This document shows, one piece after another, positions 1,598 to 17,982 of a DNA stretch of 64,000 nucleotides (positions are counted from its first letter, which is position 1; each line of letters starts with the position of its first letter). The DNA is from Kineosporia corallincola. GTDB lineage: Bacteria > Actinomycetota > Actinomycetes > Actinomycetales > Kineosporiaceae. A program made the position numbers and the translations under genes. Below the pieces are notes generated by a model, which saw only the letters and a list, made by a program, of their open reading frames with translations, searched no databases and was not told the origin of the DNA. Where the stretch lies: positions 248,001 to 312,000 of the forward strand of contig NZ_JAHBAY010000005.1 in the NCBI RefSeq assembly GCF_018499875.1. The letters run 5' to 3'.

Positions 1598-2665
1598 TCA
1601 ACGGATTACGGCCGACACCTGCCACGGCGCCGCGCCCACGGTGTCGAGCGCCACGGACAGGCCGGGCACGGACAGCTCGATGGTGGCGGCGGCGACCGTC
1701 AGGACGTCCCACAGCACGTCACCGGGTGGCCCGGGAGCGCGCAGCAGGTGCCTGATCCGGGTCCAGGCCTCCTGCTGACCGGGCCACCCCGACACCGGCG
1801 AGGCCGCCTGCCTGTCCGACCGCCGGGCCACCTGTGACGCCGCCTGTGACGCCGACTGCCGGGCTGCCTGCCGGGCTGCCTGCCGGGCCGACTGCCGGGC
1901 TGCCTGCCGGGCCGCCTGCCGGACCATGGCCGCCGCGGCCAGAGGCTCGTGCGGGCAACCGGCGAGCCGGGCCCAGCTGGCGTCCTCGTCGAGGTCGTGC
2001 GGCGGGCACTGCTCGTAGAGCTCACCGGCCAGGGCCCGCAGCCGCGCGCCCGGCACCCGCCCGGGCCGGCGCACCGCGCCGAGCACCGGCAGGCCGGTCG
2101 CGCTCTCCAGCATCGCGAGTTCCCGCACCACGTCGGCGGGTTCGTCGGCGCTGTGGACGAAGTTCAGCAGTACGCTCGGCCCGGCCAGCTCGGCGCGGAT
2201 CTCGGAGCCGGACCGCTTGCGCGGGTCGGCGGAGCCCTTCACCCCGGACAGCCGGGCCGCCGCGGGAGGACCGGCCGGTGTCCAGGTGCGGTCGCGCAGC
2301 ACCAGCAGCAGGCTGTCGCCGCTGGTCAGGATGCGGTCGACCAGGTCGACCTTGTCCTCGGTGGCATTGGTGAACTGGTACCGCCACAGCTCCCGGATCA
2401 GCATGACCCCGAACCGGAAGCGCCATGCGCCCACCACGTCGAACCCGCGCACGTCCAGCGCCCGCAGGGCCCGTTCCAGCCGCCGCCCGGCCACCGCCTC
2501 CGGCTTCAGCACGGCCACCGTGACCGGCAGGACCAGCTCGGGCGGCAGCTCCCGCAACCCCGCCCGCACGTACGGGTCGCCCAGGTAGCTCGCGACCTTC
2601 CGGGGACTGCGGCTCAGGCGGCGCAGCTCGTCCTCGCGGACGGTGGCCGGACGGGGCGCCGTCAC
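1598..2665 (-). CDS. Nucleoside diphosphate kinase-fold protein 1 (operon gene 18)
   Basis: A 355-residue protein with an NDP-kinase domain in its N-terminal two thirds. It shows the phosphate-contacting Lys in VLKPEAV near residue 49 and the segment NFVHSADEPADVVREL near 170, which corresponds to the catalytic-His motif NxxHgSDs..sAerE of NDP kinases. The histidine is kept. It is over twice the size of a housekeeping Ndk (about 140 residues) because of insertions and a C-terminal extension. The extension includes an Arg-Gln-Ala-rich tandem repeat (DNA 1831-1922, 12-bp units). The GTG start overlaps the preceding stop (GTGA). It is paralogous to the gene at 12544-13548. Phosphoryl transfer is a family inference; the substrate is unknown. 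Confidence 0.75.
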   Translation of the reverse strand: MTAPRPATVREDELRRLSRSPRKVASYLGDPYVRAGLRELPPELVLPVTVAVLKPEAVAGRRLERALRALDVRGFDVVGAWRFRFGVMLIRELWRYQFTNATEDKVDLVDRILTSGDSLLLVLRDRTWTPAGPPAAARLSGVKGSADPRKRSGSEIRAELAGPSVLLNFVHSADEPADVVRELAMLESATGLPVLGAVRRPGRVPGARLRALAGELYEQCPPHDLDEDASWARLAGCPHEPLAAAAMVRQAARQAARQSARQAARQAARQSASQAASQVARRSDRQAASPVSGWPGQQEAWTRIRHLLRAPGPPGDVLWDVLTVAAATIELSVPGLSVALDTVGAAPWQVSAVIR

Positions 2666-3708
2666 CGGCTCACCGCCGGCTTCCTCGCGGTCCACGGCGC
2701 GGGATCGCGCCCGGCCGACCGCGGCCTCTGATCCGCCCACCACCGCACCGACTTCCGCACCACCCCGGCGGGATCCTCGACCACGCGCGTCGGTTCGAAG
2801 GGCGCGGCCAGGCTGGTGTACCCCTCGAACATCCCGAGCAGACGCACCGCCTCGAGTTGCACCGGGGACAGGTGCTTCTCGGCGAAGGACAGGAAGAACC
2901 GGTGCCAGCTGTCCGACGGCACGCACGGCGGCACCGCGATCGGGGCGATGCCGCGGGCGTCCCGCCACTCGTTGATCGTCTCGCAGGTCAGGCGGGTCAG
3001 ATCGGCCAGCCGCAGGCACCGCTCCCCGGCGCTGACGATCTCCAGCCGGGTACCGGCCGGCGGGGACCCCAGCGCCGCGTCCACGACGGTGGCGGCCACC
3101 AGGTCGACCGGCGCGATCTCGACGAAGCCCTCCGGGCTCCCGACCACCACCGCGGCCATCCCGGAGACGATCGCGCGCAGCAGCCCGTAGGGCCCGCTGA
3201 ACCGGGAGATCGCCCCGTCCTGCCGCCGTCCCAGCACCAGTGGTGGACGCACGACGGTCAGGGCGTCCGGGCACGCGGACCGGACGATGTTCTCGCACTC
3301 CGCCTTGGACCACTCGTAACCGTTGCGGTAGCCGCCGAATCCGGTGGTCAGTGGGTCACCGGCGACCCGCGCACCGCCGACGTAGGCGGTGGAGACGTGC
3401 ACCAGGTGGGTGCCCGGGCCGAGCAGACCGGTCAGGGCCCGGGTCGGCTCGATGTTGGCCGTCGTCGCCTCGCGGGCCGTCATCGTCCAGCGGGTGGACG
3501 CCGCGAGGTGCACCACCACGTCCCAGGGCCCGCGCAGGTTCTCGGGCGGGGGTTCGGCCACCAGGTCCCACGGCACGGTTCCGGGCACGGAGCCGGTGCG
3601 GGTGGTGGCCACGACGTCGGCCTCTCGCGTGGGTGCGGTGCGGGCGGTGAACTGGCGGACGACCTCACGGCCGACGACGCCCGCGGCTCCGGTGACGAGG
3701 ACACGCAT
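2662..3708 (-). CDS. Extended SDR, thioester-reductase / NAD-dependent epimerase type (operon gene 17)
   Basis: A 348-residue protein starting with a Rossmann TGAAGVVG motif at residues 6-13 and carrying a YxxxK catalytic pair (YEWSK) and an upstream HVSTAYV strand. This layout fits the Male_sterility/thioester-reductase branch of extended SDRs, which use NAD(P)H to reduce acyl thioesters or act on sugar-like substrates. The ATG at 3708 has GAGGGGAG upstream. It lies 14 nt after the acyl-CoA dehydrogenase-like gene and is translationally coupled (GTGA) to the last gene. If it is a true thioester reductase, the thioester carrier must be CoA or come from elsewhere, as no carrier protein is seen in this operon. 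Confidence 0.72.
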   Translation of the reverse strand: MRVLVTGAAGVVGREVVRQFTARTAPTREADVVATTRTGSVPGTVPWDLVAEPPPENLRGPWDVVVHLAASTRWTMTAREATTANIEPTRALTGLLGPGTHLVHVSTAYVGGARVAGDPLTTGFGGYRNGYEWSKAECENIVRSACPDALTVVRPPLVLGRRQDGAISRFSGPYGLLRAIVSGMAAVVVGSPEGFVEIAPVDLVAATVVDAALGSPPAGTRLEIVSAGERCLRLADLTRLTCETINEWRDARGIAPIAVPPCVPSDSWHRFFLSFAEKHLSPVQLEAVRLLGMFEGYTSLAAPFEPTRVVEDPAGVVRKSVRWWADQRPRSAGRDPAPWTARKPAVSR

Positions 3709-3722
3709 CCGGGAAACTCCCC

Positions 3723-5111
3723 TCAGGACGAGCGGGACAGGGTGGTCGGTGACGGTTCGGTGGTCGGCTCGGTGGGTGACTGGGTGGGTGAATCGATGGA
3801 CGACGCGGCGGTGAGAGCGCGCAGCCCGGGCGCGGTCTCGTCCAGGTCGAGCCCAGCGGGCAGGCCCAGCCCACGGCGGCCGAGGAACTGCCGGGTGGCC
3901 AGGCCGGTGGGCGGGTGGAACCGGATCGCCTGCATGTCGCGCCAGAGCCGTTCGAGGCCGGCGGCCCGGCTGAGCGAGACCCCGCCGCAGACCTCGGCGA
4001 GCGCGCCGATCGCGGCGGGCAGCACCTCCGCCGCGTGCTGCTTCAGACCCAGCACAGCCGGCAGAAGGCGTTCCGGGTCGGCACCGGCATCCATCGCGGA
4101 AGCCGTTGCCGCGCAGGCCGACTCCAGGGTGAGCACGCGCGCGAGGTGTTCCCCGGCCACGGCCTGCACGCTGGGCAGCTCGGCCCGTGAGGCGTCCAGG
4201 TGCGCGATCCGGCCCCGGGCCGTCAGCGTCCGCACCAGGGCCAGGGCGGCGTCCAGCACCCCCAGGTAGCAGGCCGTGCTGGTCAGGACGAACCAGATCA
4301 CCCCGGCGGCCACCACGTCGTCGTCCTGTCCCACCGGGCCGGTGTAGAACACCAGGTCGTCCGGCACCTCGCAGTCCTGCAACCGCAGGGTGTCGGAACC
4401 CGAGCCACGCATGCCCAGGGTGTTCCAGGTGCGGTCCACCGACACCCCGTCGGCCGTGGTGGGCAGCAGGATCACCAGCAGGCGCTCCGGCCCGTCGTCG
4501 GGGTGGGACTGCGCCTGGAGGCAGGCCAGATCGGCGTCGGCGGCCAGCGAGCACGGGCTCTTGCGCCCGGACAGCACCCAGCCCCGCGGCCCGCGGCGGG
4601 CGCGCAGGGTGGAGCGGACCACCGAACCGCCCAGGCTAGGTTCCGCGAAAGCCGATGCCACCAAACGGTTCTGGGTGGCGACGGCCTCCAGCAGCATCCA
4701 CGACACGTCGGCCCGGCGGCGCCACTGCTCGACCATCAGGCCGGTGGAGAACAGATGCATGTTCACCGCGACGGCCAGCGCCGGGTCGGCCGCGGCCAGG
4801 CGGCGCTGCGCGGCACAGCAGCGCAGCACGCCCGCACCGGCACCGCCGAACTCGGTGGGGATCGCCAGGCCCGGCCAGGACGCCCCACGCAGGGCCGCCA
4901 GCCCCGCCGCGGAGATCCGCCCGCTCCGGTCGGCCTCCACGGCCCCGGACCGCACCGTGTCCAGCACCGGGCCGGGCAGCAGGTCGGCGGTGTCCGGCCA
5001 GAGTCCGGAAGCCGTTGCACCCCAGGCCGACTCGCCGAACTCGCCCGGCGCAGCACTCATCCCCGCACCCCGGGAACCCCGCCCGCCGAACTCGCCCGGT
5101 GCCGCGCTCAT
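3723..5111 (-). CDS. Acyl-CoA dehydrogenase-like flavoprotein (operon gene 16)
   Basis: A 462-residue protein with the acyl-CoA dehydrogenase layout: a helical N-terminal domain (PTEFGGAGAG), a central beta domain (FAEPSLGGSV, then a WNTLGMRGSGSDTL segment) and a C-terminal helical domain with CGGVSLSRAAGLERLWRD. Such flavoproteins desaturate acyl thioesters or hydroxylate amines and aromatics. The ATG at 5111 overlaps the upstream stop (ATGA). The start region is duplicated: MSAAPGEFG occurs at residue 1 and again at residue 18, so a second ATG at 5060 is a credible alternative start. The C-terminus ends in a Ser/Pro/Thr/Glu repeat. Substrate unknown. Confidence 0.8.
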   Translation of the reverse strand: MSAAPGEFGGRGSRGAGMSAAPGEFGESAWGATASGLWPDTADLLPGPVLDTVRSGAVEADRSGRISAAGLAALRGASWPGLAIPTEFGGAGAGVLRCCAAQRRLAAADPALAVAVNMHLFSTGLMVEQWRRRADVSWMLLEAVATQNRLVASAFAEPSLGGSVVRSTLRARRGPRGWVLSGRKSPCSLAADADLACLQAQSHPDDGPERLLVILLPTTADGVSVDRTWNTLGMRGSGSDTLRLQDCEVPDDLVFYTGPVGQDDDVVAAGVIWFVLTSTACYLGVLDAALALVRTLTARGRIAHLDASRAELPSVQAVAGEHLARVLTLESACAATASAMDAGADPERLLPAVLGLKQHAAEVLPAAIGALAEVCGGVSLSRAAGLERLWRDMQAIRFHPPTGLATRQFLGRRGLGLPAGLDLDETAPGLRALTAASSIDSPTQSPTEPTTEPSPTTLSRSS

Positions 5112-6361
5112 CGCTGGGTTCCCGAGGCGACGGTGGCCCGGGCCGCCGAGGTCAGCTGTGCGTCCAGCACGGCCAGCGCCTCGGCCAGGTCGGCGTCGCT
5201 GGCGACCAGCGGCGGCATCAGCCGCAACGTGGTCGGGCGGCTCAGGCAGGGCGAGACCAGCAGGCCGGCCGCGGCGAGCCCGACCATCAGCTCCCCGGCC
5301 AGGGCGGGCCCGGTCAGGTCCAGGCCCCACAGCAGCCCCCGGCCGCGCACCCCGGCGATCGCGTGCGGGTGCACGGCGGCGATCCGCCGCAGGCCGGTGC
5401 GCATGGCCGTCTCGATCTGCCGGCCGCGCGGCGCCAGCTCCTCGATCGCCCGCAGGGCCGCCGGCAGCGCCGCGCAGCTCAGCGGGTGCCCGCCGAAAGT
5501 GGCCGAGTGCAGGAAGGGATCAGCGGTCAGCGGCCGGTACAGGCGTTCCGAGAAGACCGCGCCGGACAACGGCACCACCCCGCCGCCGAGCGGCTTGCCG
5601 ACCAGAACGGCGTCCACCGGCAGCCCCCAGGTCAGCGCCAGCGAGCGCTCCCCGCAGCGGCGCAGGCCGCACTGGATCTCGTCGGCGATGACCGGGGTGC
5701 CGTGGCGCCCGGCACTCGCGCACCAGGCGGCGAGCACCCGGCGGTCCAGCGCGCGCACGCCGTTCTCCCCCTGCACCGGCTCGACCACCAGCGCGGCCAC
5801 GTCGCCGTTGCGCACGTACCGCTCGACGGCGTCCGGGTCGTCGGCGGCCACGTGGACGCACTCGGCGAGGCTTCCCTCCAGGCCGCGCCGGAACTCCGGG
5901 CGATGGGTGAGAGCCAGTGCGCCCAGCGTCTTTCCGTGGAAGGCGCCCTCCACCGCGAGCACCCGGCGGCGGCCGGTCACCAGCCGGGCCAGTTTCGTCG
6001 CGACCTCGACCGTGTCGGAGCCGTTGAGCCCGAGGTACACCCGGGGCAGGACGTCGCCGAAGTAGCCGGACAGGGCCGCCGCGGCCTCGGCCGCGGCCGG
6101 GTTGGCCAGCGTGCGGGTGGAGGTGGGCATCACGTCGAGCTGGGCCCGCACCGCGGCCACCACGTCCGGGTGCCGGTGCCCCAGCAGGGCGACCGCGTAG
6201 GAACCGAAGTCCAGCGCCCGGCGCCCGTCCGAGAGCGTCACCCGGCTGCCCTGTGCCGAGGCCTCCACCGCGCCCTGCCCGGCGAAGGAACCGGTGAGCG
6301 CGAGCCGGGGCGGCAGGTGGGCGCGCATACGCTCGAAAACCTTTCCGGCATCGACGGTCAC
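5108..6361 (-). CDS. Class III pyridoxal-phosphate aminotransferase 1 (operon gene 15)
   Basis: A 417-residue fold-type I enzyme. It shows the N-terminal DGRRALDFGSYAVALLGH segment, the PLP-phosphate segment near FHGKTLGALALTH, the DEIQCGLRRCG Asp and the PLP lysine in VLVGKPLGGG. It would transfer an amino group to a carbonyl, as ornithine/acetylornithine/4-aminobutyrate aminotransferases do. The GTG start overlaps the preceding stop (GTGA) and its own stop overlaps the next start (ATGA). A second, divergent class III aminotransferase lies at 11222-12547 in the same operon, so two transamination steps are implied. Confidence 0.87.
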   Translation of the reverse strand: MTVDAGKVFERMRAHLPPRLALTGSFAGQGAVEASAQGSRVTLSDGRRALDFGSYAVALLGHRHPDVVAAVRAQLDVMPTSTRTLANPAAAEAAAALSGYFGDVLPRVYLGLNGSDTVEVATKLARLVTGRRRVLAVEGAFHGKTLGALALTHRPEFRRGLEGSLAECVHVAADDPDAVERYVRNGDVAALVVEPVQGENGVRALDRRVLAAWCASAGRHGTPVIADEIQCGLRRCGERSLALTWGLPVDAVLVGKPLGGGVVPLSGAVFSERLYRPLTADPFLHSATFGGHPLSCAALPAALRAIEELAPRGRQIETAMRTGLRRIAAVHPHAIAGVRGRGLLWGLDLTGPALAGELMVGLAAAGLLVSPCLSRPTTLRLMPPLVASDADLAEALAVLDAQLTSAARATVASGTQR

Positions 6362-7122
6362 GACCGGCTCACCCCGGCCCGATCATCGGCCCGGACATCG
6401 GCCCGGACATCGGCCCGGACATCGGCCTGCACCTGGGGCCGGCCCACCTCCTGCCCCGGTCCCCGGCCCACCTCCTGCCCCGGTCCCCGGCCCACCTCCT
6501 GCCCCGGTCCCCGGCCCACCTCCTGCCCCGGTCCCCGGCCCACCTCCTGCCCCGATTCCCGGCCCACCTCCTGCCCCCGTTCCTGGCCCGCCTCCCCGGT
6601 CGCCCGGCTGCCCGCGCCCAGCCAGGCCGAGGGCATGGCGACGGGCAGGTGCGCGGCCTGGTTGACCGGCAGGATCTGCCGGGCCAGACGCAGGGCGGGA
6701 AAGAGCCCCTCGGGCCGGCGCACCGAGGGGGCCGGGCCGTCGTACCCGAGCTCGGCCTCCAGGGCGTGCACGTACGCCTCGACCGCCGGCAGCCACGAGG
6801 CCGCCTCGACCGGGTCGTGCGAGCGGGCCATCGCCCGCACCAGGCCCAGCCCGGCCGCGACCACCTCCTCCGGCAGGCCCGCGAACGGGTCGGCGAGAGC
6901 GTCCGTCACGTCCGGCACCAGACCACCGGCCAACAGCGCCCTGACCGTCAGCGTGCGCAGCACCAGGTCACGCGTGGCGTAGCGGGCCACGGGCAGCTGA
7001 CCGGCCTCGACCGCCCCGACCACGTCCTCGTAGGAGGCGTGCACGTCCAGCAGCAGCTCCATGCTCCCGTGACAGTGAAAAGCCGCCCAGCGTCGTGGAT
7101 CCACCTCACGCACCCCCATCAC
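6358..7122 (-). CDS. Unknown protein with repeat-rich C-terminus (operon gene 14)
   Basis: I do not recognise this 254-residue protein. Residues 1-170 look like a mainly helical soluble domain with no signal peptide or membrane segment. Residues about 175-245 are low complexity: repeats of GQEVGRGP encoded by 24-bp DNA units, then RADV repeats encoded by 12-bp units. The start is GTG at 7122 or the adjacent ATG at 7119, overlapping the nucleotidyltransferase gene by up to 17 nt. The overlap with that gene, and with aminotransferase 1 (GTGA), suggests a protein working with one of them. Confidence 0.6.
   Translation of the reverse strand: MMGVREVDPRRWAAFHCHGSMELLLDVHASYEDVVGAVEAGQLPVARYATRDLVLRTLTVRALLAGGLVPDVTDALADPFAGLPEEVVAAGLGLVRAMARSHDPVEAASWLPAVEAYVHALEAELGYDGPAPSVRRPEGLFPALRLARQILPVNQAAHLPVAMPSAWLGAGSRATGEAGQERGQEVGRESGQEVGRGPGQEVGRGPGQEVGRGPGQEVGRGPGQEVGRPQVQADVRADVRADVRADDRAGVSRS
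6385..6420. repeat. 12-bp in-frame tandem repeat
   Basis: Three exact copies of ATCGGCCCGGAC with degenerate copies on both sides. They lie inside the C-terminus of the unknown protein and encode RADV-type repeats on the minus strand. Confidence 0.9.
6441..6584. repeat. 24-bp in-frame minisatellite, six copies
   Basis: Units start at 6441, 6465, 6489, 6513, 6537 and 6561, each beginning GGCCCACCTCCTGCCC. The first four are identical and the last two diverge by a few bases. They encode the octapeptide repeat GQEVGRGP in the C-terminus of the overlapping gene. Copies are contiguous with no spacers, so this is not a CRISPR array. Confidence 0.95.
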
Positions 7123-8113
7123 GTCCCTCCTCGTGCACCGAAAGCCACACCAGGTCCTGTTCGATCAGCCGCCGCAGGTCCGGCGTGACCGCCGAGACCC
7201 GGCCGCTCCAGCTCAGGTTCGGGTCGGCGGCCGGGTCCGCGGCCGCGAGTTCCACGCCGCGCAACCCCCAGCGCTGCACCAGCGCCCGGTCGTGCACGCG
7301 CCAGGTCGAGGTCCCCTCCGCCAGACGCACCGTGACCAGCGGGTCGTCGGGCAGCGGCCGGTGCGCGGTGAGCCGGGTGATCAGGCCCTCGGCCCGGTCG
7401 CGGTAGGCGGCCACCTCCCGCTCCCGCAGCGGCAGGTCCATCAGGGCGGCGTACTCGGCCACCAGGTCCGCCCGGCCCAGGCGCTCGAGCTTCAGCCCCA
7501 GCCACTTGGGCCCCACGTAGGTCTGCCCGGCCTCGGTCGCCACCACGTCCAGCGCCGCCGTGGCGGCGTCGCACCAGCGCACGGCGGCGGCCATCGGCCG
7601 GGCCGGGGCCAGGAGCCGGGCCGCCGTGCGGCAGCGCAGCGTCTCGCCGCGCCACCAGTCCCGCGCGTAGTCCACCACCTGCGGGCGCATCCCGGCCTGC
7701 CAGTCCCGCCACGGCCCGGTGCCCGCGAGCGCCGCCCCGAAGGTGAGCCGGGCCAGGCGCAGCAGTCGCGACCGGGCCGCACGCCAGGACGCGCTGTCGG
7801 CGCGTTCCTCCCCGCCCTCACGCAGCACGGCCGACGCCGTCCTCACCCACTCCGCCTCCACGTAGGTGACGTCCACCGCGACCCCGAGACCGTGCGAGCT
7901 GATCGGGAAGTCGGTGACCTGGGCGTCCACGACGACGTGCAGGTCGACGTCGCTGGCGGCGTTGCCGAAGCCGTGCAGCACCGACCCGGAGGCCACCACC
8001 AGCAGCGGTTCGCCGAAGGCGTCACTCACCTCCGCGAGCAGCGCCTCGTCACTCACCCCCGGACCCGCGAGGAACGTCCTCAGGTTGTCGTGCATGCGCC
8101 TGTCGGTGATCAT
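7106..8113 (-). CDS. Pol-beta-superfamily nucleotidyltransferase (operon gene 13)
   Basis: A 335-residue protein whose residues about 40-65 contain GSVLHGFGNAASDVDLHVVV, the GS-x-n-SDxDL signature of DNA polymerase beta-type nucleotidyltransferases with two metal-binding aspartates. The remaining two thirds is helical. Relatives transfer a nucleoside monophosphate to small molecules (for example ANT resistance enzymes) or to RNA and protein. In this context it could cap a biosynthetic intermediate or inactivate the product; both are inference. The ATG is at 8113, with another in-frame ATG at 8095. It follows the ABC permease by 30 nt. Confidence 0.68.
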   Translation of the reverse strand: MITDRRMHDNLRTFLAGPGVSDEALLAEVSDAFGEPLLVVASGSVLHGFGNAASDVDLHVVVDAQVTDFPISSHGLGVAVDVTYVEAEWVRTASAVLREGGEERADSASWRAARSRLLRLARLTFGAALAGTGPWRDWQAGMRPQVVDYARDWWRGETLRCRTAARLLAPARPMAAAVRWCDAATAALDVVATEAGQTYVGPKWLGLKLERLGRADLVAEYAALMDLPLREREVAAYRDRAEGLITRLTAHRPLPDDPLVTVRLAEGTSTWRVHDRALVQRWGLRGVELAAADPAADPNLSWSGRVSAVTPDLRRLIEQDLVWLSVHEEGRDGGA

Positions 8114-8143: not shown

Positions 8144-8920
8144 TCAGGTGAGAGCGGACTTCTCCCTGCGGTAGTCGAGGGAGCCCAGGCCGACGGCCCC
8201 CAGCACGACGGTGAGCAGGCCGATGAGCAGCAGCGCCTCCAGCGTCGGGCCCCACGAGCCGCCGCCCGTCGTGGCCTCGTCCAGGGCACGCATCGCCCAG
8301 TGCTGCGGCGTGATCAGCCCCAGGGCGTGCGACAGGGCCGGCAGGTTCTCGTCGGGGACGATGGTTCCGCCCACGCTGCCGGACGTCAGCAGCAGCACGT
8401 AGGCCACGCTCTGGAAGTCCGGGGAGGTGCGGGTGACGGCGTACAGCACCACGCCGAGCGCGCACCCGGCCAGCACCAGCGCCGCGCCCACCACGACCAG
8501 CTGGGCCACGGACCCGTGCAGCGGCAGGCCGTACGCGCCGAACGCGACGGCCCAGAACACGGTCAGTTGCAGCGCTCCCGCCCCGGCCACCGGCAGGAGC
8601 TTGCCGACCAGGAAGGCCGCCCGGGACGGGCGGCTGACGGCCTGCCGGGCCCAGGTGTGACTGGTGTACTCGCGGAAGAACGCCAGACCCGCGTAGTTCA
8701 CGGTCATGAAGCTGAACATCACCGCGACGCCGACCATGGAGCGGCCCGGCACGGCCTGCGGGCCGGACCCCGCCACCGCCGGGCCGAGGGTGACCGACAG
8801 CACCGCCGGCACCACGAACATGAAGGCCAGCGGCGTGCGCATCCGCCACATGATCAGGCTGTCGGTCACCGCGAAGGCCCGGGCCACGGCCCAGAACGGC
8901 GGATGGTTCTCACTCGTCAT
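8144..8920 (-). CDS. ABC-2 type transporter permease (operon gene 12)
   Basis: A 258-residue membrane protein with about six hydrophobic segments (including LAFMFVVPAVLSVTL, VAVMFSFMTVNYAGLAFF and ALLLIGLLTVVLGAVGLGSL near the C-terminus) and an overall ABC2_membrane layout. With the ATPase encoded just upstream (11-nt overlap) it would form a homodimeric drug- or polysaccharide-type exporter. Location inside the biosynthetic operon suggests product export or self-protection. Confidence 0.85.
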   Translation of the reverse strand: MTSENHPPFWAVARAFAVTDSLIMWRMRTPLAFMFVVPAVLSVTLGPAVAGSGPQAVPGRSMVGVAVMFSFMTVNYAGLAFFREYTSHTWARQAVSRPSRAAFLVGKLLPVAGAGALQLTVFWAVAFGAYGLPLHGSVAQLVVVGAALVLAGCALGVVLYAVTRTSPDFQSVAYVLLLTSGSVGGTIVPDENLPALSHALGLITPQHWAMRALDEATTGGGSWGPTLEALLLIGLLTVVLGAVGLGSLDYRREKSALT

Positions 8921-10296: not shown

Positions 10297-10506
10297 TCAG
10301 GCGACCGGGCTGGGAACCGCCGGGTGGGCGGTCGTCTCCTGCGCGATCAGCTCCTCGATGTCGTCCCGGCAGCTGCCGCACCTGCTGTTGGCGCCGCTCA
10401 CCCGGCGCAGGTCCTCGACGGTGCGGTGACCGCACCGCACCAGGCGGGTGATCTCGTCCTCCCCGACGTCGGCGCACACGCACACCACGACGTCGTCGTC
10501 GTTCAC
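10297..10506 (-). CDS. BFD-like [2Fe-2S] protein (operon gene 9)
   Basis: A 69-residue protein with four cysteines placed as in bacterioferritin-associated ferredoxin domains: CVC near residues 9-11 and CGSC near 43-46. Such small proteins bind a [2Fe-2S] cluster and pass electrons. Its GTG start overlaps the stop of the HAD gene (GTGA). In this operon it could supply electrons to, or repair iron in, the cupin proteins, but this is inference. Confidence 0.82.
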   Translation of the reverse strand: MNDDDVVVCVCADVGEDEITRLVRCGHRTVEDLRRVSGANSRCGSCRDDIEELIAQETTAHPAVPSPVA

Positions 10507-11225
10507 GGCCGGCTCCCGGTCCAGCTCCCGGTCCAGCTCCCGGTCCAGCTCCCGGTCCAGGTCCCGATCCAGGCCGTCAGCTCGGGGTCGAGCAGCGAGC
10601 CGACGACCAGGTCCGCGTCCAGGGGCCGGTCCGGCAGGCTGGGGACCCCGACGACGCGCACCCCGGCCGCCCGCGCCGAGCGCGTACCGGTGGCCGAGTC
10701 CTCGAACGCCAGGGTGTGGGCCGGGTCGACGCCGAGCCGGCGGCAGGCGGTGAGGTACATGTCCGGGGCGGGCTTGGGCTCGGCCACCTCGTCGGCGGCG
10801 ACGCTCACCCCGAAGGTGCCCGCGAAACCGCCCCGGGCCAGGGCGGCGTCGAGCAGGGCCCGCGGCGAGTTGCTGGCCACCGCCACCGGAACGGCATTGC
10901 GCACCAGCTCCACCAGGGCGTGCGCCCCGGCCATCGCCTGCGCCTGCCGGGTCACCACCTCGGTGACCAGGCCGAGCAGTTCCGCCGACAGCGACCGGGC
11001 CGCGGCAGGCTCACCGAGGTGGCCGGCGATCGCGACCCCGACCTGCTCGATCGAGCGGCCGATCACCAGCTCCTTCTGCTCCACGCCGAAAGGCAGCCCG
11101 CGGCGCGCGAACACCTCCCGCTCGGCCACCGTCCAGCACGGCTCGGTGTCCATCAGCAGGCCGTCGCAGTCGAACACCACCGCGGCCGGGCGCCACCCGC
11201 CGGACCAGCCGTCGCAACGCGTCAT
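10503..11225 (-). CDS. HAD-superfamily phosphatase (operon gene 8)
   Basis: A 240-residue beta-phosphoglucomutase-like HAD protein. Motif I is DCDGLLMD near residue 19 (nucleophile Asp and acid/base Asp), motif II is the SNS in VAVASNSPR, motif III is the Lys in EPKPAPDMY and motif IV is EDSATG. The C-terminus is extended by a GSWT tandem repeat. The ATG overlaps the aminotransferase 2 stop (ATGA). Dephosphorylation of a pathway intermediate is the natural reading. Confidence 0.85.
   Translation of the reverse strand: MTRCDGWSGGWRPAAVVFDCDGLLMDTEPCWTVAEREVFARRGLPFGVEQKELVIGRSIEQVGVAIAGHLGEPAAARSLSAELLGLVTEVVTRQAQAMAGAHALVELVRNAVPVAVASNSPRALLDAALARGGFAGTFGVSVAADEVAEPKPAPDMYLTACRRLGVDPAHTLAFEDSATGTRSARAAGVRVVGVPSLPDRPLDADLVVGSLLDPELTAWIGTWTGSWTGSWTGSWTGSRP
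10512..10571. repeat. 12-bp in-frame tandem repeat, five copies
   Basis: Four exact copies of GCTCCCGGTCCA from 10512 to 10559 and one degenerate copy to 10571. They encode the GSWT repeats at the extreme C-terminus of the HAD phosphatase. Confidence 0.93.
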
Positions 11226-12547
11226 CTCTCGTCCTCCAGTGCCAGGAGCGCCCGGCCGAGAAGCTCGGCCATCCGGCGCAGATCGGGCCGTGTCGTCACC
11301 AGTGGAGGATGCAGAATGACCGTGTCGGGCGCCATCCCGGTACTGGCCAGCAGCAGCCCCTCGCCGTCCGGCGGCTCGGCCGCCAGCCGGCGCAGGTCGA
11401 GCGCGAACGGCCCGGTCAGCCGCACCCGCACCACCAGACCCACCGCGTCCACCTGCTCCACCAGCCGGGACGCACCGCACCACCGCCGCAGCTCCCCGGC
11501 CAGGAAGCGTCCCTGGGCCTCCACCCGCGCCGGGACGTTCGGCCAGGCCTCCCAGCGGTCCAGCACGGCCTCCACCGTGGCCAGGGCGTGCGGGTTGCCG
11601 GCGAACGTCGAGGAGTGGCTCCCGACCGCGAAACGCTCGGGAGAGGCGAGGGGTTCGCGGGCCCAGACACAGCTGAGCGGTGTCACCCCGTTGGTCAGCG
11701 CCTTGCTCGCCACGACGACGTCCGGCTGGATGTCGTGCAGCATGAACCCCCAACGCGGACCGAGACGGTGCATCCCGGTGAAGATTTCGTCGACCACGAT
11801 AAGGCCGCCCAGCCCCCGTACGTGGTCCACGACGCGCCGCAGGTGGGCGCTGTCCGGCAGAACCGCCCCGCCCACGTTGAGCAGCGGCTCCAGGATCAGC
11901 GCCGCCACACCGTCCGGGGCGGACGGCCCGGGCACGCCGAGCTGGTCCTCGTGCCCCAGCCGCTCCACGGCGCTCGCGCAGGCCGGGTTGCACCCCACGG
12001 CCGGCCGGTGCGGGCACGACCGGCAGTCGGGGTACGGCAGCCGCACGACCTGCGGGCCGGGCCACGGCTGGACACTGCGGTAACGGGCGCTGGCCGACAG
12101 GTGGGCGGTGAACGGCGACCGGCCGTGGTAGCTGCCCTGGAAGGTCAGCACCGGCCCGGCGCCGCGGGAGGCGGCGACGATGCGCATGGCCATCTCGATG
12201 CCCTGGGTGCCACCCAGCTCGACCGCGACCCGGCCCGCGGTGCCCGTGACCGAGGAGAACAGCGACTCCAGCCGGGTGAGCACCCGCACCCGCAGCTCCG
12301 ACTCGCAGAACGAGGGCAGCGCGGGCAGTTCCAGGGCGGTGCGGTGGGCCGCGGCGAGCACGTCACGGTCGTAGCCGAAGGCGACCGCGCCGTTGGCGGC
12401 CTCCGCGTCGAGGTAGGAACGGCCCGCCTCGTCGTACAGCCGCACCCCCTCGGCCCGCACGAACCGCACCGCCGGCGGCGTCCGGTACACCAGGTCCCCG
12501 GCCGCCAGCGCGGGCGGGATCCGCCGTTCCGCACGCACCGGGTTCAT
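11222..12547 (-). CDS. Class III pyridoxal-phosphate aminotransferase 2 (operon gene 7)
   Basis: A 441-residue class III aminotransferase with FQGSYHGRSPFTAHLSAS, the DEIFTGMHRLG aspartate and the PLP lysine in VVVASKALTNGVTPLS. A Cys-rich insertion (CRSCPHR then GCNPAC) precedes the PLP aspartate, similar to segments in glutamate-1-semialdehyde/diaminobutyrate-like members. It is clearly not a recent copy of aminotransferase 1. It overlaps its neighbours on both sides by ATGA. Confidence 0.87.
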   Translation of the reverse strand: MNPVRAERRIPPALAAGDLVYRTPPAVRFVRAEGVRLYDEAGRSYLDAEAANGAVAFGYDRDVLAAAHRTALELPALPSFCESELRVRVLTRLESLFSSVTGTAGRVAVELGGTQGIEMAMRIVAASRGAGPVLTFQGSYHGRSPFTAHLSASARYRSVQPWPGPQVVRLPYPDCRSCPHRPAVGCNPACASAVERLGHEDQLGVPGPSAPDGVAALILEPLLNVGGAVLPDSAHLRRVVDHVRGLGGLIVVDEIFTGMHRLGPRWGFMLHDIQPDVVVASKALTNGVTPLSCVWAREPLASPERFAVGSHSSTFAGNPHALATVEAVLDRWEAWPNVPARVEAQGRFLAGELRRWCGASRLVEQVDAVGLVVRVRLTGPFALDLRRLAAEPPDGEGLLLASTGMAPDTVILHPPLVTTRPDLRRMAELLGRALLALEDER

Positions 12548-13548
12548 CGTCCGTCCTCCCGTGTCCACCGCTCGGCACCCACCGTCGGGATCACCGGCCG
12601 CAGGCCGGGCACGTTGCACTCGATCGCCGCCGTCGCCACCGACAGCACGTCCCACAGCGCGTCGGCGGGCAGCTCACCGGCGGTGAGAGCATCCAGCAGG
12701 GCGCGCCACCCGGCGCCCTCCCGCACGGCCGGGTGCCGGATCGCCGCCAGCCGTTCCCGGCTGGCGGCCGCGTCCAGGTCGTGCGCCGGAACCTGCTGGT
12801 ACAGAAGGCTTACCAGCTCCTCGACCCGTTGGTCCGGGAGCGGTTCGCCGGCACCCACCGCGGGCGTCACCGGCCGGGGCGTCACCAGGTCGAACAGCGC
12901 CAGCTCCCGCACCACGTCGGCCGGCTCGTCGGCGGTGTGCAGAAAGTTGAACAGCGTGGTCGGCCCGCGCAGGGCGGTGCGCAGATCCGCCGGGCCGCGG
13001 GCGGCCGGGTCAGCCGGCCCCTTCAGCGCGGCGAGCCGGCAGGCCGCCGGCAACGCGGAGCCCGGGCACCACCGGGTGTCGCGCAGCACCAGCAGCAGGC
13101 TGTCGGCGCACGGCAGCAGCAGGTCGACCACATCGGCCCGGTCCCGGCTGGCGATGTTGAACTGGTAGCGCCACACCTCCCGGGTCAGCAGCGGCGTGAA
13201 CCGCAGCGTGGTCGCGGCCACCACGGTGAAGCCGTTCCCACGAACGGTTCTCAGGGCGGCCTCCACCCGGCGACCCGCCAGGGCATCCGGTTTGAGGACG
13301 ACGAAAGTGGTGTTCCAGACGTCCCCCGGCTCGATCAGCTGCCGGCCGCGCCGGTAGTGCGGGTCGATCCGGTACTGGGCCGCCTTCTCCCGGTCCCGGG
13401 TCAGCGTGCGCAGTTCTGCCACGTCGACGTCGCTCAGGCCGTCGTCCGGCAGCTCGTCCGGCATCTCGTCCAGTTCCTGGCCGGCGGGCGGCCGCGCGAC
13501 CGTGCGCGTGGTGGTCTGCGTTGTGGTCTGCGTTGCCGGGGTCATCAC
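12544..13548 (-). CDS. Nucleoside diphosphate kinase-fold protein 2 (operon gene 6)
   Basis: A 334-residue paralogue of the operon's last gene. It has the same VLKPDAL lysine motif, an REVWRYQFN segment shared with the paralogue (RELWRYQFT) and NFLHTADEPADVVREL, in which the His equivalent to the Ndk catalytic residue is kept. Both proteins share a C-terminal region ending in a conserved DALWDVLSVATAAIE-type segment. The start is GTG at 13548 (GTGA overlap with the formyltransferase) or ATG at 13545. The N-terminus is Thr-Gln repetitive. Confidence 0.75.
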   Translation of the reverse strand: MMTPATQTTTQTTTRTVARPPAGQELDEMPDELPDDGLSDVDVAELRTLTRDREKAAQYRIDPHYRRGRQLIEPGDVWNTTFVVLKPDALAGRRVEAALRTVRGNGFTVVAATTLRFTPLLTREVWRYQFNIASRDRADVVDLLLPCADSLLLVLRDTRWCPGSALPAACRLAALKGPADPAARGPADLRTALRGPTTLFNFLHTADEPADVVRELALFDLVTPRPVTPAVGAGEPLPDQRVEELVSLLYQQVPAHDLDAAASRERLAAIRHPAVREGAGWRALLDALTAGELPADALWDVLSVATAAIECNVPGLRPVIPTVGAERWTREDGR

Positions 13549-14396
13549 ACGGCCTCCGCGGTCGGGGTGCGGCCGGCCGCCAGCCGGAGCCCGCCCAGGG
13601 CGGTGGGCCGGCCGTCCAGGTGCACGACGGTGCTGCCGTCGCGGTGGCGGGCCACCGGGTCCAGCGCGAACCGTCCCTCGGCCAGCCCCAGGACGGCCGC
13701 CCGCAGGGCCGGGCGGTCGCTCACCTCCTTCTGCCGCAGCTCGTGCCGCACCACGTCGGCGTCGGTGACCGGCCGGGGCCCGCGATAGGGCGTGAGTGGT
13801 CCCTGCACGAGTACCGCTCCCCCGTCGTGGCTGTCGTCCACGAGGAACGTGGAGGTGCGGGTGGCGTCGGCGCCAGCCCGCAACGCACAGCCCACCGGGT
13901 CCAGGCCGATCAGCTGCCGCTCGCCGGAACGGCTCAGGCGGGTCAGGTCACCCGGATGCTGGTTGATGACGCGGCCCGCGAACGTCTCCAGCAGACGTCC
14001 GTGGATCCACCGGTGATAGGCCAGGACCACCAGGTCGATCTCCCCCTCCCGGTCGCCGAACTCCTCCAGCCGGTCGGTGAGGCGGTCGTGGAAGGCCCGG
14101 GCCTGACGCCGGTACGCGGCGCGCTCACCGTGCGAGCGGCACTGCGCCCACGAACCGCACTGGGCGGTGAAGTCGCCGGGCCACGCCGGGATCCCCTGGG
14201 CCCGGGCCACGTCGAGCGCGGGAGCGTTGCGCCGGTCGGACGCCACCAGGACCACGCGCACCACGTCGGGACGCTGCGCCGCCAGCCGGCACAGGGTGCC
14301 CAGGTTGGCCCCGGTCGACGAGACCAGGACCGCGATGCGCAGCGGCCGGGACCGGCCGGCCAGCAACGGTTTCGGGGCGGCGGGCGGCTCAGGCAC
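13545..14396 (-). CDS. PurN-like formyltransferase (operon gene 5)
   Basis: A 283-residue member of the formyl_trans_N family. It begins with the IAVLVSSTGANL nucleotide-like loop of GAR transformylase, and all three catalytic residues appear to be kept: Asn and His in VINQHPGDL and Asp in the DDSHDGGA segment. A 10-formyltetrahydrofolate-dependent N-formylation is the family expectation. GTG start, 8-nt overlap with the upstream hydrolase gene. It is unlikely to be the purine-pathway enzyme, because it is embedded among tailoring genes and the sequence between the motifs is quite different. Confidence 0.78.
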   Translation of the reverse strand: MPEPPAAPKPLLAGRSRPLRIAVLVSSTGANLGTLCRLAAQRPDVVRVVLVASDRRNAPALDVARAQGIPAWPGDFTAQCGSWAQCRSHGERAAYRRQARAFHDRLTDRLEEFGDREGEIDLVVLAYHRWIHGRLLETFAGRVINQHPGDLTRLSRSGERQLIGLDPVGCALRAGADATRTSTFLVDDSHDGGAVLVQGPLTPYRGPRPVTDADVVRHELRQKEVSDRPALRAAVLGLAEGRFALDPVARHRDGSTVVHLDGRPTALGGLRLAAGRTPTAEAV

Positions 14397-15177
14397 GACC
14401 GGCCTCCCCGGCCAGCGCCAGGATCTCCCGGCGGACCACCTGCCAGGCCGGGCGCCCGGGGTTGACCAGGTGCATGTGCCGCGCCCCCTCGACGGCCACC
14501 AGCCGGGACCCCGGACGCTCCCGCACGTAGCGCCGGGAGTGCGACGGCGGCACCGCCTGGTCGTCGCTGCCGTGCACCACGACCACCGGGCACGGCGCCG
14601 GCACCGGACGGTGCGCGGGCGACGCCTCCCGCAGCACCCGGGCCCGGTTCCCGGCGGCGACCGGGCCCAGCAGCCCGGTCACCGCACCGTTGCCCAGCCC
14701 CTCGGCGTCCGCCGCCTCCAGATCGGTGACCGGGGCCAGGGCCACCACCGCCGCGGGCGTGACCTCACCGGCCGCCAGCAGCGCGAGGTGTCCCCCGGCC
14801 GAGTGACCGACCAGCACGGTACGCCGCGCCGGAATGCCGGTGTGCCGGGCGAAAACCTCCAGCGCGTGGACGATGTCGTGCAGGCAGGTGGGCCAGGTGC
14901 CGCCCTCCTCGGCGGCCCGGTACTCCGCCCCGCCGACGGTCAGGCCCTCCGCGGCCAGCTCGTGCATCATCGGGTGCAGGTCGGCGACGGTCTTCTCGCG
15001 GCGCCAGAAACCGCCGTGGACCAGCACCACACCCACTCCCGGCAGGCTCTGCCCCGGCTGTCCTGACTGCCCCGGCTGTCCTGGCTGTCCGGGCTGCCGT
15101 GGCGGGCGGTCGATCTCGACGAACCGTGGCCCCTCGCCGTAGGGCACCCGCACCAGGCGCCGCTGCACGGTGTTCAC
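14389..15177 (-). CDS. Alpha/beta hydrolase, kynurenine-formamidase/BD-FAE-like (operon gene 4)
   Basis: A 262-residue hydrolase with the oxyanion segment VLVHGGFW, nucleophile elbow GHSAGG, an Asp in VVHGSDDQAV and a His in EGARHMHLV. The HGGFW motif is characteristic of the kynurenine formamidase/BD-FAE group that cleaves formamides or esters. A Pro-Gly-Gln repeat (DNA about 15048-15098) is inserted between the first strands. The GTG at 15177 overlaps the cupin stop (GTGA). It lies next to a formyltransferase gene, so it could remove a formyl group, but this is inference. Confidence 0.75.
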   Translation of the reverse strand: MNTVQRRLVRVPYGEGPRFVEIDRPPRQPGQPGQPGQSGQPGQSLPGVGVVLVHGGFWRREKTVADLHPMMHELAAEGLTVGGAEYRAAEEGGTWPTCLHDIVHALEVFARHTGIPARRTVLVGHSAGGHLALLAAGEVTPAAVVALAPVTDLEAADAEGLGNGAVTGLLGPVAAGNRARVLREASPAHRPVPAPCPVVVVHGSDDQAVPPSHSRRYVRERPGSRLVAVEGARHMHLVNPGRPAWQVVRREILALAGEAGRA

Positions 15178-15860
15178 AGCACCCCGAGCGCGGTCAGCCG
15201 ACCGCGCCAGTGCGCGAACCGCTCGTCCGGCATCTGCACCTCGCGACGGCGGGCCTCGTCCTCCTCCGCCGCCCCCAGCCGCCACCAGACATGGCCGTCC
15301 TCACGGCGGATCATGAACGCCCGGGCCTTCTGCGCCGGGCTCTGGATCATCAGCGACACCGTCTCCGGGTCGGTCAGGGTGGTGTGCAGCTGCTCGTGGT
15401 GCAGGGTGATGATCGCCCCGGTCTCCTCCTCCCGCACGGTGCGGGGCCAGAACCTGGTGACGTCGGCGGTCTCGTCGAGCGGCTGATCGGTGGCGTACAT
15501 CGTGTGGTAGTAGCGGCCGTACAGCAGATAGGCGGTGAAGGAGTACCGGTGGTTGTGCACCCGCTCGTACTGCGAGGTGTTCGCCAGCCGCAACCGGATC
15601 CGCAGGCCCTTGTCCTGGTCGTCCCAGATGACGATCTTGTCGTCCAGGGCATGGCACTCACACTTGGCCCGCAGGTCGGGCGTCGTGGGCACCCGGTCCA
15701 CGAGGGCCCGCAACAGCGCCCGGTCACCACCCAGCCGCAGGGCGATCCGGCGCGTGGTGTCGGCGGCCCCCTCGATGTCGGACCAGTCCACCGCGGGCAG
15801 ATCGTTCATCACCGCCAGCACGTCCGTCTCCGTCGGTGCCGAACCCGTCGTCATCGTCAT
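15174..15860 (-). CDS. Cupin-like protein A, possible thiol-dioxygenase-type fold (operon gene 3)
   Basis: A 228-residue protein of no family I can name. It contains VHNHRYSFTAYLLYGRYYH, which resembles the first metal-binding motif of cupins (HxH, then GxYxH), and a later LHHEQLHTTLTDPETVSL segment resembling the second motif with another His. The spacing recalls cysteine-dioxygenase-type cupins. It is paralogous to the next gene upstream (15898-16578). ATG at 15860 with GGAGACGG upstream. Non-heme iron oxygenase activity is a guess from motif pattern only. Confidence 0.6.
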   Translation of the reverse strand: MTMTTGSAPTETDVLAVMNDLPAVDWSDIEGAADTTRRIALRLGGDRALLRALVDRVPTTPDLRAKCECHALDDKIVIWDDQDKGLRIRLRLANTSQYERVHNHRYSFTAYLLYGRYYHTMYATDQPLDETADVTRFWPRTVREEETGAIITLHHEQLHTTLTDPETVSLMIQSPAQKARAFMIRREDGHVWWRLGAAEEDEARRREVQMPDERFAHWRGRLTALGVL

Positions 15861-15897: not shown

Positions 15898-16578
15898 TCA
15901 CAGCACCTCCAGCCGGTTCAGCCGGCCGACCAGGTCCTCGAAGTCGTCCTGCCGCATGACCTTCCGCTCACGCCGGTCCGGCCGCTCCCGGTCGGCTCCG
16001 TACCGCCACCAGAGCCGGCCGGTCTCGCGCTCGGTGATCAGCGACCGTTCCTTCTCGGCCGGGCCGCGCAGGAACAGCGAGACCGTGTCCGGCGTGGTGA
16101 AGGTGGTGTGGATCTCGGTGTGGTGCAGCGAATACGTGCTGCCGGCGCTCTGGTGCGTGACGAACCGCGGCACGGCCTTCGCCTCACTGAGGCGCGCGTC
16201 CACGTCGTCCTGCACGTGCCAGGGCAGGTTCTCGTCGAGCTCACCGACGAGTTCGTGGCGGGTGTGCCGGTACCGGCCGGTGATGATCCGGCTGGTGAAC
16301 GAGAACCGGTGGTCGTGCGGCCGGTCCCGGTGCTCGCGGGTCGAGATGTGCAGGCGCAGGCGGAATCCCCGCTCACCGCCGTCGTAGATCACGATCTTGT
16401 CCAGCAGCCGGTGCCGCTCGCACATCGCCCGCAGCGCGGCGTCTTCACGGGCCCGGTCCACGAGCAGGCGCAGGGTGTCGCGGTCGGCGGCCAGTTCTTT
16501 CAGCAGTTCACGGGTCACCTGGTGGGTACCGGGCAGGTCGGCCCAGTCCAGGTCCAGTCGGTCCAGTGCCTCGATCAC
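15898..16578 (-). CDS. Cupin-like protein B, paralogue of A (operon gene 2)
   Basis: A 226-residue protein that aligns end to end with cupin-like protein A: both share DKIVIxD, a His-x-His motif (here RPHDHRFSFTSRIITGRYRH) and LHHTEIHTTFTTPDTVSL. The shared histidines are the likely metal ligands. GTG start at 16578 behind GAGGAGCTGA. It lies 63 nt after the NagA-like gene and 37 nt before cupin A. Tandem paralogues with preserved ligands suggest either a heteromeric enzyme or two successive reactions. Confidence 0.6.
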   Translation of the reverse strand: MIEALDRLDLDWADLPGTHQVTRELLKELAADRDTLRLLVDRAREDAALRAMCERHRLLDKIVIYDGGERGFRLRLHISTREHRDRPHDHRFSFTSRIITGRYRHTRHELVGELDENLPWHVQDDVDARLSEAKAVPRFVTHQSAGSTYSLHHTEIHTTFTTPDTVSLFLRGPAEKERSLITERETGRLWWRYGADRERPDRRERKVMRQDDFEDLVGRLNRLEVL

Positions 16579-16641
16579 GTCGATCAGCTCCTCGTACGGA
16601 TGACGACAGCGGTTTCGGACGTCGGCCCGCCCGAACGGATT

Positions 16642-17982
16642 TCAGCCGGCCCGCTCGGGTGCGGCGCCCACGATCGCGGTGCGCCGGAGCCCACCGAGCG
16701 CCCCCGGGTCACCGGAGGGCTCGACGAAGCAGCCTGACCGGCCGGCGTCCAGCTCGGGCCGGCGGCCCAGGTCGAAGGCCCGATAGGCGGCGAAGGCGGC
16801 CAGGTTCCAGATCGCGGTCTCGTCCAGCCCGCGGGAACGGGCGTTGCCGAGCTGACGGTCCATGGGCTGCGAGCCCGCGGCCACGATCCCGCCGTGCTGG
16901 TACCACAGGCCGTTCTCCTCGCCCCGGTGCAGCGCCTGTCCGCCGAGCCGGGCGGAGTCGCACCGGTCGGTCATCAGCATGATGTTGTCGCGGCCCACCA
17001 GCTCGACCGCGCGGGCGGCGATCGCCAGGTCGACGTGCTCACCGTCGAAGTTGATGCAGGAGGCCACCTTTCCCTGCCGGCACAGCCTCATGATGGCCGC
17101 GGGTACCGGCCCGACCTGTTCGGGCAGGTCGTCGAGCGTCCAGCCGGGCAGATCGTAGGCCCGGAGCGTGGCGTCACGCTCCTGGCGGGCGCGCCGGGTG
17201 CGGAAGGCGTGCCGGATCGTCAGCGGCATGTCGTTGAAGAGGTGGTCGGTGACCACCCGGGCGCCGGTGATCGGGCTGTCGGTGTCCCAGGCCACCTCCA
17301 CCAGCTCCTCCACCAGCCGGGCCGAGCCGAGCGGGTCGGACCGGGTGAAATGCCCGAGTGCTGGCCGGATTCCGGCACCGACCAGGGTGCGGACGATCCA
17401 TGGCAGGTCCGGGTGCCGGCGATCCACCCGGTCGTGCAGTTCCGACCCGGGAGTCAGTGCGTCGGGCGACATCACGACGTAGACCAGGCCGAGAGGCCCG
17501 CAGGAGGCCAGGATCTCCCACTCCGCGCGGGTCGGCGGCCACACCGTGGCCGCCGGGGTGCCGCCGTGACTGGCCAGCAGGGGCCCCTCGAGGGCGATGC
17601 CGGGAACGTAGGGCAGCGACCCGGCCGCCCTCATCTGCGCGTAACGGCGCATGAAGGCGACGAATTCGCCGAGACGATCGTGCCGCAGGTACAGCGTCGG
17701 GATGCACAACACCCCCTCGGCCGCCGACGTCTCGTCCAGCGCGGCCAGGTCCAGCGCGGCGAAGTCGGAGAAGTCGACGTCACCGATGCCGTGGCAGTGA
17801 ACCTCCACCGGCAGAGCGGGAACGAAGTAGGGACGCGCACCGTCCGGGTTCGCGACCGCGGCGCCCGTGTTCTCGACGTGCAGCTCGTGCCCGTCCCAGC
17901 TGACCAGCCCGCCCACCGAACCGTGGACATCCAGAATCTGTTGCGCGGCGAAGCTTTCCGACCGTACGTTTCCCCGTTTCAT
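16642..17982 (-). CDS. NagA-like amidohydrolase (operon gene 1)
   Basis: A 446-residue amidohydrolase resembling N-acetylglucosamine-6-phosphate deacetylase. It has a metal-binding HCHG near residue 62, the LEGPLL glutamate near 125, DHLFNDMPLT near 250 and a catalytic-type Asp in LMTDRCD near 340. It would hydrolyse an N-acyl group or related C-N bond. The ATG at 17982 has a G-rich ribosome site; longer frames upstream lack one. It is the first gene of the operon, so the promoter should lie in 17983-18260. The family is secure, the substrate is not. Confidence 0.75.
   Translation of the reverse strand: MKRGNVRSESFAAQQILDVHGSVGGLVSWDGHELHVENTGAAVANPDGARPYFVPALPVEVHCHGIGDVDFSDFAALDLAALDETSAAEGVLCIPTLYLRHDRLGEFVAFMRRYAQMRAAGSLPYVPGIALEGPLLASHGGTPAATVWPPTRAEWEILASCGPLGLVYVVMSPDALTPGSELHDRVDRRHPDLPWIVRTLVGAGIRPALGHFTRSDPLGSARLVEELVEVAWDTDSPITGARVVTDHLFNDMPLTIRHAFRTRRARQERDATLRAYDLPGWTLDDLPEQVGPVPAAIMRLCRQGKVASCINFDGEHVDLAIAARAVELVGRDNIMLMTDRCDSARLGGQALHRGEENGLWYQHGGIVAAGSQPMDRQLGNARSRGLDETAIWNLAAFAAYRAFDLGRRPELDAGRSGCFVEPSGDPGALGGLRRTAIVGAAPERAG

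Follow-up and report, generated by a model that had tools for sequence, protein, structure and literature searches.

What is made by an operon that combines two aminotransferases, a formyltransferase, a nucleotidyltransferase and an exporter, and in which the familiar synthases of gene clusters find no match? The question is raised by a stretch of 64,000 nucleotides from Kineosporia corallincola (the window; positions 248,001 to 312,000 of contig NZ_JAHBAY010000005.1, assembly GCF_018499875.1, 8.2 Mb), in which 18 consecutive genes occupy the minus strand between positions 1598 and 17982. The genes are numbered from the left, g18 being the first gene of the operon, and all coordinates below are those of the window.

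The 18 genes are a mosaic and not one conserved pathway, because the 68 loci with which they were compared lack the upper half almost entirely. Block 1 (g1–g9) is a recurrent cassette. In it the genes for a short-chain dehydrogenase/reductase (SDR), a class III aminotransferase, a flavoprotein with acyl-CoA dehydrogenase (ACAD) fold and an SRPBCC protein form a recurrent module. Block 2 (g10–g18) is rare and is joined to block 1 here. The operon as a whole is claimed by no known family tested and is an orphan cluster built on a variant of known enzymology. We give about an even chance to the reading that both blocks together serve the biosynthesis and export of an alkylamine. Within it the odds are better for the amine steps, and poorer for the phosphoryl steps and for a single product. 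If one molecule were fed by both blocks, which is a guess, the best guess for it would be an exported N-oxidised alkylamine that is linked to a formylated amino head group through phosphoryl or nucleotidyl chemistry.

The four-gene module and its probable amine chemistry

One scan of named genomes, seeded with an alignment of five SRPBCC sequences, gave 68 distinct loci, some of them shortened by contig ends, in which gene presence was scored by tblastn at E 1e-8. The SRPBCC gene is found in all 68, aminotransferase a (g4) in 62, the SDR in 61, the ACAD-fold flavoprotein in 55, and the nucleotidyltransferase and its helical partner in 26 each. Clustering into gene families at a threshold of 33% identity assigns the complete quartet to 49 loci, while 10 loci have three of its families, 5 have two and 4 have none; this threshold partly explains the lower counts, since each locus has an SRPBCC gene by construction. 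Three loci from outside the scan of named genomes (L045, L070 and L071) repeat loci within it (L113, L120 and L139), as judged from one 200-base probe each. Two further families, F10 and F11 (P450-like and FemAB-like by eye), are present in 22 and 21 of the 71 clustered loci, among those that have the quartet but lack the nucleotidyltransferase. Matches of aminotransferase b (g12) in 61 of the 68 loci were discounted as cross-matching to aminotransferase a, their identity being only 24–31%.

The SDR (g2, 2662..3708, 348 aa) is probably thioester-reductase-like. It passes the Pfam cut-off for NAD_binding_4 (E 1e-21 on the longer open reading frame) and has Thioester-redct as its best NCBIfam match (E 7e-16), but this match reaches 58 bits where the cut-off is 213. 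Aminotransferase a (g4, 5108..6361, 417 aa; Pfam E 8e-67 over residues 35–400) carries a VGKPL motif and shares 65–68% identity with its counterparts in many of the 68 loci, which form a large group. The SRPBCC protein (g9, 9818..10264, 148 aa) matches Polyketide_cyc (Pfam E 4e-16 on the longer frame). The ACAD-fold flavoprotein (g3, 3723..5111, 462 aa; Pfam, NCBIfam and solved relatives) is probably nitrososynthase-like: nitrososynthase-type entries hold ranks 3–5 among 32 listed PDB matches, with unlabelled ACAD-type entries scoring slightly higher at ranks 1–2. Most of g3, over 358–377 residues, aligns to the sugar nitrososynthases 3m9v/4kcf (E 5e-26; titled FAD-dependent oxidoreductase, which we take to be KijD3) and 3mxl (E 8e-23; presumably ORF36); a RDxxAxxF stretch near the C-terminus is common to g3 and these entries, and DnmZ (4zxv) also matches. 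In contrast to the sugar enzymes, g3 would act in an alkyl context.

These likenesses suggest a route in which g2 would reduce an acyl thioester, made elsewhere, to the aldehyde, g4 would convert the aldehyde to the primary amine, and g3 would N-oxidise the amine, while g9 probably holds the chain. The product would be exported by the ABC pair, a DrrA-like ATPase (g8, 8910..9821, 303 aa; Pfam, NCBIfam) and an ABC-2 permease (g7, 8144..8920, 258 aa; Pfam), which have tblastn matches in 30 and 28 of the loci, counts that may include unrelated transporters. The initial annotation of the window had described the operon as one with no recognised core. It was right in so far as no Pfam match to polyketide synthase (PKS), nonribosomal peptide synthetase (NRPS) or terpene synthase families is found among the 18 genes (for ribosomally made peptides, RiPPs, no dedicated tool was applied), and too strong in the other half, because the step from acyl thioester to amine is recognisable in the recurrent module.

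Parallels to the route exist. The PtTamH/TamA system of tambjamine YP1 pairs a pyridoxal-phosphate-dependent transaminase with a thioester reductase, fused to each other in PtTamH, and leads from an acyl thioester to a fatty amine, according to the accessible part of PMC9594044. Compared by description and not by sequence, the window genes differ in being separate, in having no adenylation or acyl carrier protein (ACP) gene with them, and in the presence of the flavoprotein, the SRPBCC protein and the nucleotidyltransferase. The proposal for azodyrecin has a dehydrogenase act first, a transaminase second and a two-component VlmH/VlmR-like N-hydroxylase third (PMC9379638, accessible in part), so that azoxy clusters of the azodyrecin/valanimycin type would share with the window operon the logic of aldehyde, amine and ACAD-fold N-oxygenase. 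In L072 homologues of the quartet (28–38% identity) adjoin genes for LPG_synthase_C and a flavin reductase. L073 and L074 also hold quartet homologues, and L075 has homologues of the SRPBCC, aminotransferase a and ACAD genes (no SDR match is listed) near a weak, below-cut-off AurF-like match. An azoxy or other N–N product of the valanimycin/azodyrecin kind would fit this shared logic as well as the two cupins of block 2, cupins being known to form N–N bonds in other pathways (PMC11705231, accessible in part). We nevertheless consider such a product very improbable here: among the 18 genes no Pfam match is found to LPG_synthase_C (VlmA-type) or to aminoacyl-tRNA-synthetase-like proteins, their place being taken by the nucleotidyltransferase, NDK-like proteins, formyltransferase and cupins, and the modelled cupin matches thiol dioxygenases.

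The quartet may be regarded as a reusable amine-building cassette. It lies beside azoxy-type genes in L072 and beside AfsA-like and NDK-like genes in the L119 group, and many further orphan clusters have it as well. With its four genes it can serve as a query for finding clusters that lack PKS and NRPS genes. A second set of SRPBCC, aminotransferase and SDR genes is present in the genome of K. corallincola itself (L077, 7471–19207, contig C16), where it adjoins genes for a nucleotidyltransferase-motif protein, a dCTP-deaminase-like protein, a desaturase and a phosphodiesterase. In L068 (6598–8891) genes of the AdoMet-synthetase and inositol-1-phosphate-synthase families adjoin block-1 homologues, and the similar L096 has an NDK-like protein by eye.

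The nucleotidyltransferase, its partner and the NDK-like proteins

Next to the module lies a nucleotidyltransferase (g6, 7106..8113, 335 aa) with a GS...SDxD motif; its Pfam match to DUF6001 (E 7e-4) is below cut-off, and a profile search of the PDB finds the poly(A) polymerase cid1 (E 0.001). The adjoining g5 (6358..7122, 254 aa, with a repetitive tail) has no Pfam match. Its residues 1–175 are predicted to be all helical (pLDDT 81.5), and the model has no Foldseek match at E ≤0.001. When the duplicate L045 is left out, three nucleotidyltransferase-type families are found by clustering in 37 of the 68 loci, and a partner-type gene adjoins the nucleotidyltransferase-type gene in 35 of these; the remaining two have it elsewhere in the cluster. 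The motif is present in 19 of 19 aligned rows, with S as its first residue in L077; it was inspected in 2 of the 10 members of the second nucleotidyltransferase family and in 2 of the 3 of the third. Searched against 714 sequences, the profile of the partner recovers the third partner family completely (three members, E 4e-13 to 2e-12), reaches E 2e-8 to 0.1 over the 10 members of the second, and gives the L077 partner (L077_12) an E of 0.23, no useful margin over the best decoy (0.35). Because of such weak E-values some of the pairs rest on position and size.

In four clusters (L031, L033, L036 and L037) both domains are found in one protein together with an AMP-ligase-like part, and in L034 without that part. 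The partner domain is matched in these fused proteins with E 9e-10 to 2e-4 (in a search of only those five), and the profile-profile probability is 99.4% for the nucleotidyltransferase and 74% for the partner. All five clusters, which we take to be salinipostin-like, contain an SDR and thus share SDR, nucleotidyltransferase and partner domains with the window operon. A called NDK-like gene adjoins the SDR in L031, L033, L034 and L036, whereas in L037 no such gene is called and the match is in its short counterpart L009. L031 has PEP-synthase-like and AfsA-like proteins, as read by eye; the 18 window genes differ in having no Pfam match to AfsA, PEP synthase, ACP or UbiA. Gene functions for salinipostin were not found in the accessible parts of PMC8609351 and PMC6681047.

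The operon contains two NDK-like (nucleoside-diphosphate-kinase-like) proteins, g1 (1598..2665, 355 aa; Pfam NDK E 3e-6 on the longer frame) and g13 (12544..13548, 334 aa; VLKPDA and NFLH motifs; E 8e-7), which are 48% identical. VLKP and NF(L/V)H are kept in both copies, and the catalytic histidine is invariant in 9 of 9 rows. Both are just above the Pfam NDK cut-off and do not score as true NDK, each reaching 19 bits in the NCBIfam equivalog against a cut-off of 155. Used as an independent seed, the pair finds 14 of 394 genomes of the class including its own, several of them only near E 1e-4, and 5 of the 9 other loci with a tblastn NDK-like match also hold an SDR match. L119, L121 and L123 combine aminotransferase a, SDR, SRPBCC and NDK-like matches; in L119 (3709–5730) an NDK-like and an AfsA-like part are seen by eye in one protein, whose family is also present in L121 and L123.

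Nucleotidyl activation is reported for phosphonate pathways (PMC6697681). The phosphonate-cluster mark, phosphoenolpyruvate (PEP) mutase, has no Pfam match among the 18 genes. It may be mentioned that in L118 (5308–6195; Nocardia) an EDKxxxxxNS stretch like that of PEP mutase is seen by eye near SRPBCC and nucleotidyltransferase-type genes, and that the family of this gene also occurs in L122, L124 and L132.

For the operon, g6 with g5, and the NDK-like g1, could transfer phosphoryl or nucleotidyl groups and in this way activate the product or join it, their substrates being a guess. A wider suggestion, which we put forward as doubtful, is that the nucleotidyltransferase and helical partner, aided in some clusters by NDK-like proteins, are an undescribed means of putting phosphate or a nucleotide on oxidised alkylamines, for activation or as a cap. 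Many of the 37 loci would then use it, the window operon adding a formylated head group. In the literature searched no link between the clusters with this pair was found. The pair is singled out here as one with a directly testable reaction.

This does not mean that the pair has to be biosynthetic. It could also be a device for self-protection, or one like MNT-HEPN, that is carried by the clusters. With such a device the motif in all 19 rows would agree, as would an R-x6-H pair aligned in 14 of 22 partner rows including that of g5. The weak Foldseek matches of the g5 model include HEPN proteins as well as aminoglycoside nucleotidyltransferases in their C-terminal domains, which may be taken as a hint and not as a classification. 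However, 8 of the 22 rows lack the R-x6-H pair, which is located where the first helix begins, and in four clusters both domains are part of one protein with the AMP-ligase-like part. On balance we regard the protective role as unlikely.

Block 2 and the question of one product

The first gene of the operon codes for a NagA-like amidohydrolase (g18, 16642..17982, 446 aa). As proposed in the initial annotation, it is NagA-like, and it keeps motifs of the HxH/E/H/H/D type (VHCHG, LEGP, GHFTR, DHLFN and LMTDR), but the NCBIfam nagA match is weak (E 5e-4, far below cut-off). It is present in 2 of 364 genomes of the class including its own, the other (L161) having acyl-reductase-like neighbours by eye only. 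Two cupins follow, g17 (15898..16578, 226 aa) and its paralogue g16 (15174..15860, 228 aa). As cupins they find no Pfam match at E 0.01, but g17, the one that was modelled, has a thiol-dioxygenase fold (pLDDT 89.7). The HxH is invariant in 9 of 9 rows and a third histidine is kept in 8 of 9, as read by eye and with the geometry not checked. The PurN-like formyltransferase (g14, 13545..14396, 283 aa; NQHP and DDSHDGG motifs) matches Formyl_trans_N (E 7e-13) and, below the equivalog cut-off, PurN (E 2e-14); at E 1e-20 it is found only in its own genome among 364 of the class, and no plasmid matches. Block 2 further contains an alpha/beta hydrolase (BD-FAE-like; g15, 14389..15177, 262 aa; GHSAGG motif, Pfam E 1e-17 on the longer frame), aminotransferase b (g12, 11222..12547, 441 aa; Pfam E 2e-47 on the longer frame), a HAD-family hydrolase (g11, 10503..11225, 240 aa; Pfam E 4e-22 on the longer frame, NCBIfam) and a BFD-like [2Fe-2S] protein (g10, 10297..10506, 69 aa; Fer2_BFD E 1e-12).

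From these families block 2 would probably make a small N-formylated amino head group, by NagA-like deacylation, transamination by g12, formylation by g14 and oxidation by the two cupins, with phosphate perhaps added by the NDK-like g13 and removed by the HAD hydrolase g11. A phosphate or formyl group in the product, as also proposed in the initial annotation, is what the enzyme families suggest. Salvage in primary metabolism was set aside on the grounds of the exporter and of block 1.

Outside the window genome, block 2 is seen only in pieces. In the 68 loci the cupins are matched in two (L137 and L140) and the HAD gene in one, and the NagA-like, alpha/beta hydrolase, formyltransferase and BFD genes in none at the limit used, which a protein of 69 residues such as the last may escape. 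Cupin relatives are present in 9 of 394 genomes of the class including its own; a search of 58 relatives matched only the window genome, the family being absent from the five congeners among them. The wider neighbourhoods of four cupin loci (L040–L043) contain no other blastp match to operon genes. Nine plasmid records have a cupin match, and in the six inspected (L152–L157) the neighbours are a formyltransferase in L152 and L153, prenyl synthases in L155, an ACAD fragment and transposases in L156, and radical SAM and dTMP kinase genes in L157, the record of L154 being without annotation.

Such a distribution would be expected if two unrelated pathways shared one transcript, block 1 for an N-oxidised alkylamine and block 2, which would have become placed upstream of it, for separate tailoring of an amino sugar or amino acid. 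Relatives of g18 (57–60% identity) lie amid other gene sets on two Streptomyces plasmids, one of which annotates methylaspartate mutase, ATP-grasp and diaminobutyrate transaminase genes with it, and on two plasmids the cupin relative adjoins the formyltransferase-family gene, as mentioned above. Each block, however, has one of the two 48%-identical NDK-like paralogues, and only 32 bases separate the blocks, between the BFD and SRPBCC genes. We consider two separate pathways rather improbable, though less so than the other alternatives.

Against the two-block alkylamine reading itself several points have to be set. The closest solved relatives of g3 (5z8t and 5gj7) are titled only 'Acyl-CoA dehydrogenase type 2 domain protein', DnmZ (E 4e-16) comes behind an isovaleryl-CoA dehydrogenase (4kto, E 2e-20), many dehydrogenases also match, and the best NCBIfam match is the acyl-CoA dehydrogenase FadE16. 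Among the 18 genes there is no Pfam match at E 0.01 to ACP (PP-binding) or AMP-binding/acyl-activating genes, and none to a flavin reductase. NDK-like genes are matched in only 3 of the 68 loci. The scan extends no more than 10 kb to either side of its SRPBCC seed, and its counts are conditional on that seed. Block 2 shows no co-occurrence with block 1, bar the two loci with a cupin, and because of this the single pathway rests on the structure of the operon.

The claim of a dedicated pathway is supported for a small-molecule operon with an exporter and a lower-half gene set conserved across genera, not for one conserved pathway of 18 genes; likewise, co-occurrence of the homologues in other genomes came out split, the lower-half genes co-occurring and the upper half being nearly absent. 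No description of this gene set was found in the literature searched, subscription journals being mostly outside its coverage.

Operon layout and neighbouring genes

That the 18 genes are a coupled operon is borne out. Gene calling by codon usage finds 18 consecutive minus-strand genes between 1598 and 17916, with a model trained on window genes including some of the operon and thus not fully independent, and with hand-chosen starts each of the 18 has an uninterrupted frame and the set extends to 17982 (several start positions are uncertain by tens of bases). Of the 17 junctions 12 overlap, 9 as 4-base ATGA/GTGA and 3 by 8, 11 and 17 bases, and 5 are gaps of 14–63 bases. The order from 5' to 3' is NagA-like, cupin A (g17), cupin B (g16), alpha/beta hydrolase, PurN-like, NDK-like a (g13), aminotransferase b, HAD and BFD, followed by SRPBCC, ABC ATPase, ABC-2 permease, nucleotidyltransferase, helical protein, aminotransferase a, ACAD-fold flavoprotein, SDR and NDK-like b (g1). 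The families listed in the initial annotation hold with refinements, Pfam or NCBIfam confirming the two NDK-like proteins, the two class III aminotransferases, PurN-like, HAD, ACAD, SDR, BFD and the ABC ATPase and permease; the SRPBCC protein, the alpha/beta hydrolase and the helical partner had been absent from that list. The single promoter region expected upstream of 17982 finds weak support in one putative sigma-70-like site on the minus strand (18201–18172), with 9 of 12 consensus bases (mean 0.2 per shuffle).

About 32 kb to the right of the operon lies a gene for an NRPS of 3687 aa (49760–60823, minus strand) with four condensation, three adenylation and three carrier stretches, to which proteins of 2510 and 1814 aa in two flanking stretches (L046 and L047) are related. 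Beside it, a protein of 924 aa (46800–49574, minus strand) joins an adenylation domain to a beta-lactamase-fold domain.

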